From an uncultured Caulobacterales bacterium (GTDB lineage: Bacteria; Pseudomonadota; Alphaproteobacteria; Caulobacterales; Caulobacteraceae), in the NCBI GenBank assembly GCA_903837135.1, contig CAILTK010000056.1, positions 1-64,000 on the forward strand: a stretch of DNA of 64,000 bases, read 5' to 3'. Within the stretch, counting starts at the first letter, position 1, and each line of letters opens with the position of its first letter. The notes beneath the pieces were generated by a model that was not told the DNA's origin, made no database searches, and worked only from the letters and a program-made list of their open reading frames with translations. The translations under genes were made by a program, and so were the position numbers. This document shows positions 15,286-18,163 of this stretch, one piece after another.

Positions 15286-15747
15286 CTATTCCACGAAGGT
15301 CCAACCGTCGGACACCGGAAAGAGTGTTTCCAGCGGTGTGACCTCAAATTGGCTCCCCACGAAAAAAATGAGTTCGCCCGTGTGGTCGCGAATGGGCAGC
15401 ACCTGGACGCAATTCAGGAAGGGCCTCCCATCCTTGCCGTAGTTCATCAACGTTGCGACACCAGGGCGCCCCGCCTCGATCGCGGCGCGAAGCGCCGTGA
15501 CGGCGTCGGGGTGGGTCTCGGGTCCCTGCAGAAACCGGCAATTTCGGCCGAGGATCTCCGCTTCGGTGTAGCCGGTCAGGCGACAGAAGGCGTCGTTCAC
15601 CAACACGATCGGATTATCCGGCCGTCGGGGATCGGTCACGATCATCGATGAAATCGAGCTTTCCACGGCCGCCCTGGCGATCGCCAGTTTCGCGCTTTCC
15701 TGACGCGTCGGCCGGGGTGTCGTCTCGTTTGTCGACGGGTTAGACAT
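15286..15747 (-). CDS. Short LOV-domain blue-light photoreceptor
   Basis: A 153-aa protein consisting of one PAS/LOV domain (residues about 25-130) with short flanks. The flavin-binding motif GRNCRFLQG is complete, with the adduct cysteine at residue 70. The other flavin contacts are present as GRPFLN and GSQFEV. There is no kinase, HTH or other output domain, so it must signal through a partner. It overlaps the upstream 441-aa gene by 8 bp (15740-15747) and is probably translationally coupled to it; a winged-helix regulator is the first gene of the set. 15165-15285 holds no gene. Confidence 0.9.
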   Translation of the reverse strand: MSNPSTNETTPRPTRQESAKLAIARAAVESSISSMIVTDPRRPDNPIVLVNDAFCRLTGYTEAEILGRNCRFLQGPETHPDAVTALRAAIEAGRPGVATLMNYGKDGRPFLNCVQVLPIRDHTGELIFFVGSQFEVTPLETLFPVSDGWTFVE

Positions 15748-17065
15748 AGGGGTCGTGGGTTTCCTGCTGGATCAAACTGGCGACCCTCCGCAATTCGGCC
15801 GCTTCGGCGACCATGGCGCTCGAGGGTTCAAGTCCTGCGCCCGCGTCCGTCCTTCCGCCCGGCCGCGAACTCATATGGCTGGCGCCGGCGTCTCGCAGGG
15901 CCGTATCGCTGACCTCGCCTTCGAAAAGACCATGCACGACCACGATCGGCGATTCTCTCTGGGCGCGGGAGATCCGCGTGAGAAGCGTGCTCGGCGTCAT
16001 CGGCTCGTCCATGGACGCCAGATCGATGATGCAGCCGGAAACCCCCACCGACCGCAGCGTCGATCCCCGCAGAGGCTGCCCCGTCGACGACGCCAGGACC
16101 AGGCGGAAGAAGGGGCGCAGCAGGTGGACCACCTCCTGCAGCCGGCTTTCGACCACGCCCCGGTCCACCGCCTCGAGTTCGAGCAATACGCGCTGGCGGA
16201 ACAGGTGGCGGGCCGCCTGGAGCTTTTCGAGATAGCGCAGGCGCGTTCGCTGCAGCATCAGCGTGCTGAGCGCGACGGGCAGGTGAAGGAAGGTCCGCTG
16301 CTGCAGAAACCCGAGCGCCGCCGGGCCGGTGGCGTAATCGAGCACGCCCAGATCCAGACGCTCCCGGTCCGCCCCATAGCCGACCGCGATCGGGCTGAAA
16401 CCTCGATAGAGGCGAAATGAGCTCACGGCCTGATGCTGAAGGCTCCAGACCGGACGGAGCTCCATGGCCAAGCGCTGCACCTCGCCCGACGCCATCTTCC
16501 ATTCGGCGAAATCCTGACGGCTTTCGCTGGGGATCTGTGTCCATCGCGGACCGGCCGCCCCCACCGTTGGCGACGGCGCGACAGAGGGGGAGGCGGCGGA
16601 GGCGGCGTTGAGGGGACCGCGCGCTATCGACCGGCTACGCTCCCCCGCCACGGAGAACGCTTCGGGGCTCGGACCGGCGAATCCGTTCAGCTCGGCCTCA
16701 AGCGATCGAATCGCGTGGACCCAGTCCTGGACCTGGTCGGCGCGTCCGAGGAAATGCTGCAGCACGTCCCTCAGAATGTCGATGCACCGCGCCGCCGCCG
16801 CCGCGGGCTCGCCGGTCGGGAAGGCGATCAGGAAGTCCACCGCGTTCAACTGCACGCAAAACACGCCGGGCGCCCGGCGCTGCACGGTCCGGGCGACAAA
16901 CTCCCAGACCGCTTCGCATCGCTGCGCCCACCTGCCGCCGAGGTTTTGCGCCACCGCCCGCACGGAGATGACATGCGCCAGACCACAGGCGGGCAGGTCC
17001 GCCTCGACGATCGAGCGAAGGACGTCACGCGCGTCCCCGGACTCAAGAAGCAAGGATGTGAGCAA
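15740..17065 (-). CDS. Protein with degenerate GGDEF-like and EAL-like regions (unassigned)
   Basis: A 441-aa soluble protein that I do not recognise as a named family. Residues 10-95 have the strand/helix rhythm of a nucleotide-cyclase (GGDEF) fold but no GGDEF or metal residues. A low-complexity Ala/Ser/Pro linker follows (about 125-170). Residues 215-400 read like an EAL domain stripped of its active site: RVLLELEAVDRGVVESRL in place of the ELTE strand, no DDFG, and VVVHGLFEGEVSDTALRDAGASHM in place of the AEGVE strand. It would therefore not make or break cyclic-di-GMP but could bind a ligand or partner. It lies between a winged-helix regulator and a LOV protein on the same strand, overlapping the latter. 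The fold assignment is my inference. Confidence 0.6.
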   Translation of the reverse strand: MLTSLLLESGDARDVLRSIVEADLPACGLAHVISVRAVAQNLGGRWAQRCEAVWEFVARTVQRRAPGVFCVQLNAVDFLIAFPTGEPAAAAARCIDILRDVLQHFLGRADQVQDWVHAIRSLEAELNGFAGPSPEAFSVAGERSRSIARGPLNAASAASPSVAPSPTVGAAGPRWTQIPSESRQDFAEWKMASGEVQRLAMELRPVWSLQHQAVSSFRLYRGFSPIAVGYGADRERLDLGVLDYATGPAALGFLQQRTFLHLPVALSTLMLQRTRLRYLEKLQAARHLFRQRVLLELEAVDRGVVESRLQEVVHLLRPFFRLVLASSTGQPLRGSTLRSVGVSGCIIDLASMDEPMTPSTLLTRISRAQRESPIVVVHGLFEGEVSDTALRDAGASHMSSRPGGRTDAGAGLEPSSAMVAEAAELRRVASLIQQETHDPYV

Positions 17066-17151
17066 GGCGGGACCTGGCCGAAAAGGACGACCGCACGCTG
17101 TGCGGACGAAAAACGCCTGGGGTGGCGGGGCCGCCGGCAGGGCGGAAGGAC

Positions 17152-17655
17152 TTAGGAAAGCTGGTTCGGACCGAGCGCCTCGGGACCGTCCGTGCGTCGA
17201 AAAAGCCCGTCCACGACCTCGAAGTTGCGGACCGCCAGGTGCTCGATGGCGACCCGGGCGGGGGCGAGCTGCTGGTAGGCGGTCGCCGTGAAATAGAGAT
17301 CCGTCCCTCGGCGCGCGATCCAGCCCGCCGCGACGAGTTCAGCGACCTTGCGCCGGACGGTTTCCCGCGGCGCGCGGATCGACTCGGCGATCGAACGGAC
17401 ATTGGTGCCGAGACCTGGGAAGACGGGCACCTCACCGCTCAGCAACTGCGACTGACTGTAGCTGGCGAACAGCTTGTGCTCGGTGGTGCGGTTGGCGACC
17501 ACCAGCATGATGAGAAACTTGTCTGTGTCTCCTCCGCAAAGCTCGCGGGCGACGCTGAACAGGTCCAGCAATGGACGCAGCAGATCGTGAGCGATGGCGG
17601 GATAGTTTTCCGCGACGCGATCGAGGAGTGTCTGGTGGTCGAAGATCGACGCCAT
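17152..17655 (-). CDS. Winged-helix transcriptional regulator
   Basis: A 167-aa protein. The N-terminal 85 residues are helical and probably dimerise. The DNA-binding wing is TNVRSIAESIRAPRETVRRK followed by VAELVAAGWIARR (about 84-117), similar to Crp/MarR-type winged helices. No sensor domain is recognisable. It is the first gene of a leftward set (86 bp before the 441-aa gene, then the LOV protein), so light or redox signals sensed by LOV may be passed to it; this is inference from gene order. Confidence 0.75.
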   Translation of the reverse strand: MASIFDHQTLLDRVAENYPAIAHDLLRPLLDLFSVARELCGGDTDKFLIMLVVANRTTEHKLFASYSQSQLLSGEVPVFPGLGTNVRSIAESIRAPRETVRRKVAELVAAGWIARRGTDLYFTATAYQQLAPARVAIEHLAVRNFEVVDGLFRRTDGPEALGPNQLS

Positions 17656-18163
17656 CGGCGACGAATACCACCATCATTGATTGTCTGGCAGGCTCAGATT
17701 CGGCCATGGTCGCTCCAGCGTTGCGCTTGAACAAACACCCTTCGCGCACGCTTGAGACGGCGAATGGACCCAAAATGGGTCGCCAACGGGCAGCCAGACG
17801 TCGCCCCGCGAGAGACGCTTGCTCAGCGCGGAGGGGAAAACGGCGTTGGGAAAAGTGGGGTCGGAGAGGATTCTGCAGACCGTCGGGACGGTGAATCCGT
17901 TCCCGTCGCTATCCGCGGCATGGGGCTCCCAACCCTTGCAAAGCCTCCAAACGGGGCGCGGAGCCGAGGCCCCGCGCGACACTTTCGCCTGATCGTGGAA
18001 CAGGCCGAGCAAGAAGCTCGAGGACGAGTTGGCGATCGAGAGCGCTTGGACGCCGCGCTGCTGCGCGCCCTGCCCTCCTGGCGCGCCATCGGGTGAACGG
18101 GCTGGCGATCACGGCGTCTGCAGTTACGGTGCAGACGGCGCGCAGGGCGCGGAGCGAGACGCG
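17656..18163. other. Intergenic region between the divergent regulator and DUF817 genes
   Basis: About 500 bp with no gene that I can support. An open frame at 17752-18096 has no recognisable protein features. The only clear structure is the inverted repeat at 18116-18136. Confidence 0.5.
18116..18136. promoter_or_regulatory. Inverted repeat upstream of the DUF817 gene
   Basis: GTCTGCA (18116-18122) and TGCAGAC (18130-18136) are perfect 7-bp arms separated by 7 bp, 27 bp before the ATG at 18164. This could be a repressor operator or a small hairpin in the leader. Confidence 0.4.

Follow-up and report, generated by a model that had tools for sequence, protein, structure and literature searches.

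The locus examined here is a cluster of three genes, for a short LOV photoreceptor, a degenerate GGDEF-EAL protein (D) and a winged-helix regulator (WH), in a stretch of 64,000 nucleotides (nt) from an uncultured Caulobacterales bacterium (the window), which is contig C56 within a 4.95-Mb genome. Two described systems come closest to it. In Pseudomonas mendocina, the lit short LOV protein PmSB-LOV can strip the regulator PmlR2 from DNA, and the cited part of that report (PMC9758184) states that no partner of a bacterial short LOV protein had been found before PmlR2. In Escherichia coli, the degenerate EAL protein BluF (YcgF) is described as antagonising BluR (YcgE), the regulator encoded by the adjacent gene, in blue light (PMC3509220). 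By analogy, and as far as the cited parts of the two reports go, each shows half of the logic that we propose for the window. The window resembles PmSB-LOV/PmlR2 in that a stand-alone short LOV gene lies in one cluster with a regulator gene, but in the window D lies between them on the same strand, whereas the system in the cited part of PMC9758184 has two parts, with no dead GGDEF-EAL protein in its model and with a class II LitR/CarH (MerR-type) regulator. Similarly, as in BluF/BluR, a degenerate EAL protein would mediate the action of blue light on a DNA-binding regulator whose gene adjoins its own, but BLUF is fused to the EAL domain and the repressor is MerR-like in the cited part of PMC3509220, whereas the sensor of the window is a separate LOV protein and the WH model gives weak matches of the MarR type. 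The original prediction, made from the sequence alone, had known of no described system with these three parts; no three-part system was found, and the statement has to be qualified for these two half-way cases. Furthermore, no description of a LOV-D module, or of a module of WH, a receiver domain (REC) and D, was found in the literature, which was mostly open-access and surveyed in part.

In the same bacterial family, MrrA and LovK/LovR of Caulobacter illustrate single-domain receivers as signalling hubs (PMC5964349); LovK is a LOV histidine kinase, unlike the window LOV, and no D-type or winged helix-turn-helix (wHTH) partner is named in the abstract. RtrC of Caulobacter crescentus is described as a cryptic MarR-like winged-helix regulator that binds a pseudo-palindrome and is largely confined to Caulobacterales and Rhodospirillales (PMC9648850); it is likened to WH here by its description, and the cited part of that report describes no LOV or D partner gene for it.

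Gene order and proposed roles of the trio

The features are listed with their basis in brackets (ORF, open reading frame; aa, amino acids).

15286..15747, minus strand: short LOV protein, 153 aa, with the photoactive Cys in GRNCRFLQG and without output domain (ORF, motifs, Pfam and PDB matches)
15740..15747, minus strand: 8 nt, ATGTCTAA, shared by the end of D and the beginning of LOV (sequence)
15740..17065, minus strand: D, 441-aa degenerate GGDEF-EAL protein, proposed adaptor (ORF, family matches, fold, active-site columns)
15860..16468, minus strand: EAL-like part of D, residues 200-402, FRL replacing EAL (hhalign, fold, active-site columns)
16694..17038, minus strand: GGDEF-like part of D, residues 10-124, NAVDF replacing GGDEF (fold, active-site columns)
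17152..17655, minus strand: WH, 167-aa winged-helix DNA-binding regulator of MarR-like arrangement (ORF, 9-sequence alignment, model)
17767..17781, strand not applicable: candidate operator of WH with the palindrome GACCCAAAATGGGTC, at 112 nt upstream of the start of WH (own-genome scan, WH places)

The gene order agrees with the original prediction, which had described a complete short LOV gene overlapping that of a 441-aa protein, both behind a winged-helix regulator on one strand. D starts with TTG, and the overlap makes translational coupling of D and LOV likely as judged from the sequence.

We tentatively propose, at a probability of about 0.42, that the trio is an autoregulated WH module with D as a dead GGDEF-EAL adaptor, in which the input has been exchanged from a receiver to LOV. 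WH would be the DNA-binding output on palindromes of the type CCCAWWWTGGG and would control its own operon. D would neither make nor break cyclic di-GMP (c-di-GMP) and would instead serve as the adaptor between sensor and WH. The short LOV protein would be the sensor, in which blue light would produce a flavin-cysteine adduct and alter the hold of LOV on D, and D, or the LOV-D pair, would then change the binding of WH to its operator. In relatives, a single-domain receiver would be the sensor, and here a different D paralogue coupled to LOV would replace it; the exchange of input is proposed because no receiver is seen at the window locus and a different D paralogue lies there with LOV. In its favour are the observed gene order and overlap, the lost catalytic motifs, the repeated occurrence of WH with REC and D, the signalling genes close to some D relatives, the rare palindrome at WH places and the two half-precedents named above. 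In this scheme, we infer the light response, every protein contact, the binding of WH to the palindrome and the direction of regulation.

The regulator, its neighbours and its candidate operator

WH neighbourhoods were compared at 29 distinct places besides the window (25 fetched and 11 named neighbourhoods, with 7 in common), where a query with a receiver (E ≤ 1e-4) served to call REC genes. At 12 of the 29 places, the direct neighbour of WH is a convergent single-domain REC, all 12 being among the 14 with a WH identity of at least 62% (L064-L071, L088, L094, L096 and L097, with L074 and L092 as the exceptions), and a receiver gene of another kind lies near WH in L079. D-family genes were present at eight of the 29 places, from several genera, being complete in six (L066-L070 and L097) and partial in L094 and L096; in L072, the D gene is 2.3 kb away from WH and is coupled to a hybrid kinase. 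The usual order is WH, the convergent REC and then D on the WH strand (L066-L069 and L097), with D, WH and REC as the order in L070. The receiver query gave no match at the trio locus of the window, and the best match to the WH-linked receiver elsewhere in the same genome had 36% identity (E 2.5e-16; 28-41% among the 30 matches listed). WH is thus commonly accompanied by a receiver domain rather than by LOV, and on a plain reading the D-LOV pair in this genome occupies the place of REC, or of REC plus D, with a direction of change that we infer.

The phosphorylated Asp was found to be lost in six of the seven receivers beside WH-linked D genes or remnants.

L066, 8460-8855: Glu in place of the receiver Asp
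L067, 7134-7526: Glu in place of the receiver Asp
L068, 7102-7467: Glu in place of the receiver Asp
L069, 2253-2627: Glu in place of the receiver Asp
L096, 2805-3146: Glu in place of the receiver Asp
L097, 6471-6767: Ala in place of the receiver Asp

The residue is kept in L094, which retains no more than a fragment of D, in all four receivers beside WH without D (L064, L065, L071 and L088) and in L070, where D precedes WH. The Fisher value for receiver Asp loss versus D presence was 0.015, or 0.03 when L070 is counted, which is no strict probability because the receiver proteins are related. The loss in D-side receivers therefore suggests that the input had already drifted away from phosphorylation once D was in place.

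As for WH itself, the model (predicted local distance difference test, pLDDT, 81) consists of helices, the wHTH, a beta hairpin and a long C-terminal helix, and ETVRRKV is invariant in the recognition region of the 9-sequence alignment. The Foldseek matches were mostly of the MarR type, the best being MexR at E 3.5e-3 and none lying below 1e-3, with template modelling scores (TM-scores) of about 0.3-0.5, and WH remained below the curated MarR cut-offs (MarR_2, 14.2 bits vs 27; MarR, 11.9 vs 24.6). No MerR match was obtained in Pfam up to E 5, and no LitR/CarH-type match in Pfam or NCBIfam. WH matches were present in 33 of 299 family genomes, own included (E ≤ 1e-5), and in five of 299 order-wide genomes at E ≤ 1e-12, four of these being Caulobacteraceae, own included. 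A search of named genomes gave 11 loci, with close relatives in Caulobacter, Phenylobacterium and Brevundimonas records, and plasmid records gave no WH or D match at E ≤ 1e-3. In the WH tree, the window protein lies among REC-linked WH proteins, with L064 nearest and poor support.

Some further WH copies were also observed. A contig of a metagenome-assembled genome labelled Phycisphaerales (L096) carries WH at 67% identity together with REC and a D piece, and the label is probably due to a binning error or transfer. The WH copy of Caulobacter sp. S45 (G010:C9; L088, 6502-7588) is interrupted by a transposase-like gene, and transposase-like genes, as identified by eye, adjoin WH in L092 and lie about 2 kb away in L065.

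The candidate operator was not obtained from the k-mer counts upstream of WH, which gave no shared motif; it was spotted on visual inspection of the counts and tested afterwards, and the pattern CCCAWWWTGGG was derived from inspection near WH genes, four places having suggested it. The window site GACCCAAAATGGGTC is the only exact GACCCANNNTGGGTC in its own genome. CCCAWWWTGGG is rare, with 2 to 11 sites per genome and 71 in the 59.75 Mb of the 14 WH genomes. Of the 30 places in the full count (the window plus the 29 WH places), 12 have it no more than 500 bp from WH, versus 0.054 expected (0.13 if the background is all intergenic); with the four places that suggested the pattern removed, this is 8 of 26 versus 0.05 (0.11 if all intergenic). 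G153, G213, G271 and G122, genomes in which sites were already known, are in neither count. The site is located between the REC and D matches in L067, L068, L069, L094 and L096, upstream of REC in L064, upstream of WH in the window, L072, L079, L080 and L092, and just after WH in L083. Against the proposed module, 18 of the 30 WH places have no palindrome within 500 bp, and the sites in L067, L068, L069, L094 and L096 are not independent because the loci are related and the positions alike. The distances were already known when 500 bp was chosen as the limit, and the background comprises 14 genomes only. The winged-helix assignment of the original prediction is upheld: WH is of a DNA-binding protein type, and a rare palindrome is present at WH loci.

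Among 20 other genomes, the 15-mer GACCCANNNTGGGTC had a site in two, one of them beside a WH-family gene, and the reversed control had a site in seven. A regulon was not found in the own genome, where the genes around the other four CCCAWWWTGGG sites are unrelated. For 40 further sites in other genomes, weak WH-profile matches adjoined five, receiver-profile matches four and a kinase-profile match one, with none at the rest; possibly, a broader family of regulators shares the palindrome. The weak WH-profile neighbours are those in L193, L199, L203, L214 and L222, two of which were seen by eye to be next to an XRE-like regulator gene. CCCAWWWTGGG also stands directly upstream of D in L024 (2787) and L030 (1420), from the genomes G153 and G213, which have no WH match at E ≤ 1e-5. 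Scans for promoters and terminators were no better than chance.

The degenerate GGDEF-EAL protein and its family

Pfam, NCBIfam, a PDB profile search and an EAL model applied to the own genome gave no solid GGDEF-EAL signal for D from sequence alone: Pfam reported no domain, with EAL at E 0.02 in one of six aligned family members, and the EAL model found seven places at E ≤ 10, D not being among them. An hhalign comparison of the D family with own-genome EAL proteins, for which one (L135) of the seven template rows was a wrong-frame ORF, gave E 4.5e-4 and a probability of 33%, with FRL aligned on EAL. Because this evidence is weak, the assignment needed a fold comparison. In a search with the AlphaFold model of D, which is moderate (6 sequences; mean pLDDT 55), the top nine Foldseek matches were YkuI, LapD and EAL domains, with E from 2.2e-5 (YkuI) to 1e-3 and low TM-scores of 0.23-0.30 on the D query. 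VIA-align placed the LapD GGDEF-EAL tandem first (Z 11.3, 267 residues, root-mean-square deviation 15.8), and most of the rows below it, at Z 8-11, were EAL domains or tandems of GGDEF and EAL; the few other barrels reached no more than Z 9.7. A fold of the GGDEF-EAL type, resembling LapD and YkuI, is supported for D by this moderate-confidence model.

The EAL-motif Glu is present in none of the 37 aligned D-family rows, the window included, and is Arg in 30; every one of the 37 has His at the Gln position, and the Asn, DDF (Asp-Asp) and Lys positions are also changed. The GGDEF site reads NAVDF in the window and mostly x-[ED]-T-D-F in the other rows. The loss extends over 37 of 37 rows and is, according to the alignment, a trait of the D family and not decay within this genome. 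The description of the 441-aa protein as a c-di-GMP enzyme stripped of catalytic residues was therefore right in the main.

D is similar to LapD and FimX in being an inactive GGDEF-EAL tandem, and these are among the folds closest to its model; inactive tandems of this type work through protein contacts. In addition, D has a GGDEF-like part, which BluF is not known to have. The differences from LapD and FimX are that D has no sensor domain of its own, that its EAL motif is further lost and that it is linked to wHTH and REC genes. The EAL domains of LapD and FimX bind c-di-GMP without cleavage, and D could likewise be a receptor for c-di-GMP or another nucleotide, so that the module would merge the c-di-GMP level with light or phosphorylation. 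We consider this unlikely: the structural matches to LapD and FimX, a glutamate of the EAL domain retained in 34 of 37 rows and the basic EAL-like part of WH-linked D proteins are in its favour, but the EAL-motif Glu has become Arg in most rows, and substitutions also affect the Asn, Asp-Asp, Lys and Gln positions. As described in the cited part of PMC3509220, BluF, also a degenerate EAL protein, does not bind c-di-GMP.

The EAL-like part of the window D has an isoelectric point (pI) of 10.1, and its median pI is about 9.9 in WH-linked D proteins versus 8.5 in the others (8 vs 29 rows, the window D being counted as WH-linked; p 0.0003, uncorrected for kinship). A basic EAL-like part would be in keeping with a contact to DNA or to an acidic protein, of which LOV, with a pI of 5.2, is an example. 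The EAL domain of BluF is acidic (4.82, PMC3509220).

D matches were found in 137 of the 299 family genomes, own included (E ≤ 1e-8), with an identity to the window D of 23-36% among the matches listed, the window excepted; a D search of the named genome contigs found no relative. Two more D relatives were observed in the own genome, at G000:C58 (L004, 1477-2652) and G000:C67 (L002, 1495-2379), one of which matches over the EAL-like half only. In the D tree, placement of the window D in the clade of WH-linked D proteins was rejected by the approximately unbiased test (p 3.8e-7, at a cost of 55 log-likelihood units), and wider sets joining them were also rejected (0.002 and 0.013), the tested sets having been chosen after the tree had been inspected. 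The rejection therefore indicates, on the sequences at hand, that WH and D were probably joined more than once. The same result bears on the possibility that WH and the LOV-D pair have nothing to do with each other and are neighbours by chance, which would agree with the trio being seen once, with the window D lying outside the WH-linked clade and with the 86-nt gap between WH and D. However, WH and D-family genes, the latter from another clade, adjoin at the eight other WH places in several genera, and we regard a chance arrangement as quite improbable.

The neighbours of D were examined at 78 loci, which comprised 40 chosen by hand from the further hits, 28 best hits (flanks of 1.5 kb), nine WH places and one paralogue from the own genome. 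Five of them (L070, L094, L096, L146 and L157) had no D call, leaving 73. A signalling gene lies within three genes of D at 21 of the 73 loci, as a raw count, and a histidine kinase, a REC or a mini-protein like the dimerisation and phosphoacceptor (DHp) helices lies in operon-like order, within 123 nt on the same strand, at 12. The receiver, kinase and DHp profiles were partly built from neighbours picked by eye at these same loci; Pfam backs six hybrid kinases and four receivers near D, and two DHp-like mini-proteins weakly. These stand-alone mini-proteins of 63-73 aa resemble only the dimerisation/phosphoacceptor helices of histidine kinases (L145, 3358-3549; L172, 603-824; L019, 2568-2768). 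They directly precede the D gene, come after a receiver gene in L145 and L172, and gave HisKA at E 0.005 and 0.001 in two cases and nothing in Pfam for L172.

The LOV protein and the reading of the trio

LOV carries GRNCRFLQG, NYGKDGRPFLN and FFVGSQ, the residues of which we take to serve in flavin contact and adduct formation. In Pfam it matched PAS-type models only (PAS_9 at 9.8e-20), leaving no output domain in the 153 aa, as originally predicted. Its best PDB matches other than histidine kinases were 6gay and 4kuk ('blue-light photoreceptor'), aligned over residues 10-136 and presumably the short DsLOV of Dinoroseobacter. It is the sole LOV protein of its genome at E ≤ 1e-20, a threshold at which a match is present in 114 of the 299 family genomes, its own among them.

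A direct action of LOV on WH, with D having a separate role, should also be considered in this respect. It would follow PmSB-LOV, which when lit binds the adjacent regulator directly and lifts repression according to the cited part of PMC9758184, and a short LOV gene and a regulator gene share one cluster in the window too. However, LOV overlaps D rather than WH, WH has no LitR/MerR-type match, and genes of the D type are found repeatedly next to WH where LOV is absent; this alternative thus seems improbable.

Several results weigh against the proposed autoregulated module with D as the adaptor and LOV as the exchanged input. The trio with LOV was seen once, in its own genome only, among the places listed for the 299 family genomes: in the 298 others, no listed LOV place adjoins a listed D or WH place, the closest being about 5.6 kb from the disrupted WH copy of L088, and the two other members of the genus gave neither WH (E ≤ 1e-5) nor LOV (E ≤ 1e-20). 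Hence the conservation that the original prediction had looked for holds for WH and D-family genes, which recur together in several genera, and fails for the LOV part. WH and D may be transcribed separately, given the 86-nt gap, and the tree position of the window D is unsure because it is a long branch (1.96). The retained EAL-domain glutamate also counts here, as does the basic EAL-like part, because of which a BluF-like competition of D with DNA appears unlikely. Finally, no signalling gene lies within three genes of D at 52 of the 73 loci, 28 loci having only 1.5-kb flanks, and several of the 52 have one conserved setting in common by eye. The trio is flanked upstream by a DUF817 gene and downstream by an alpha/beta hydrolase gene, both on the opposite strand.

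Taken together, the cluster is real and a light switch is plausible; the trio, which is not conserved in the genomes searched, plausibly represents a variant of the recurring WH-REC-D module. A broader and more doubtful reading is that D-type proteins are interchangeable adaptors in Caulobacteraceae, by which WH has been wired to a phosphorylated receiver, to a receiver without the phosphosite or, in this genome, to LOV, the dead GGDEF-EAL protein translating each input for WH. On this reading, a switch of the two-component type would have undergone a natural optogenetic conversion in the window. The proposed module, if right, would provide a new type of partner for short LOV proteins. It would also allow the same regulator to be compared under receiver and light input, with a candidate operator ready, and would assign a function to the dead GGDEF-EAL proteins, a large and uncharacterised family that is present in nearly half of the family genomes.

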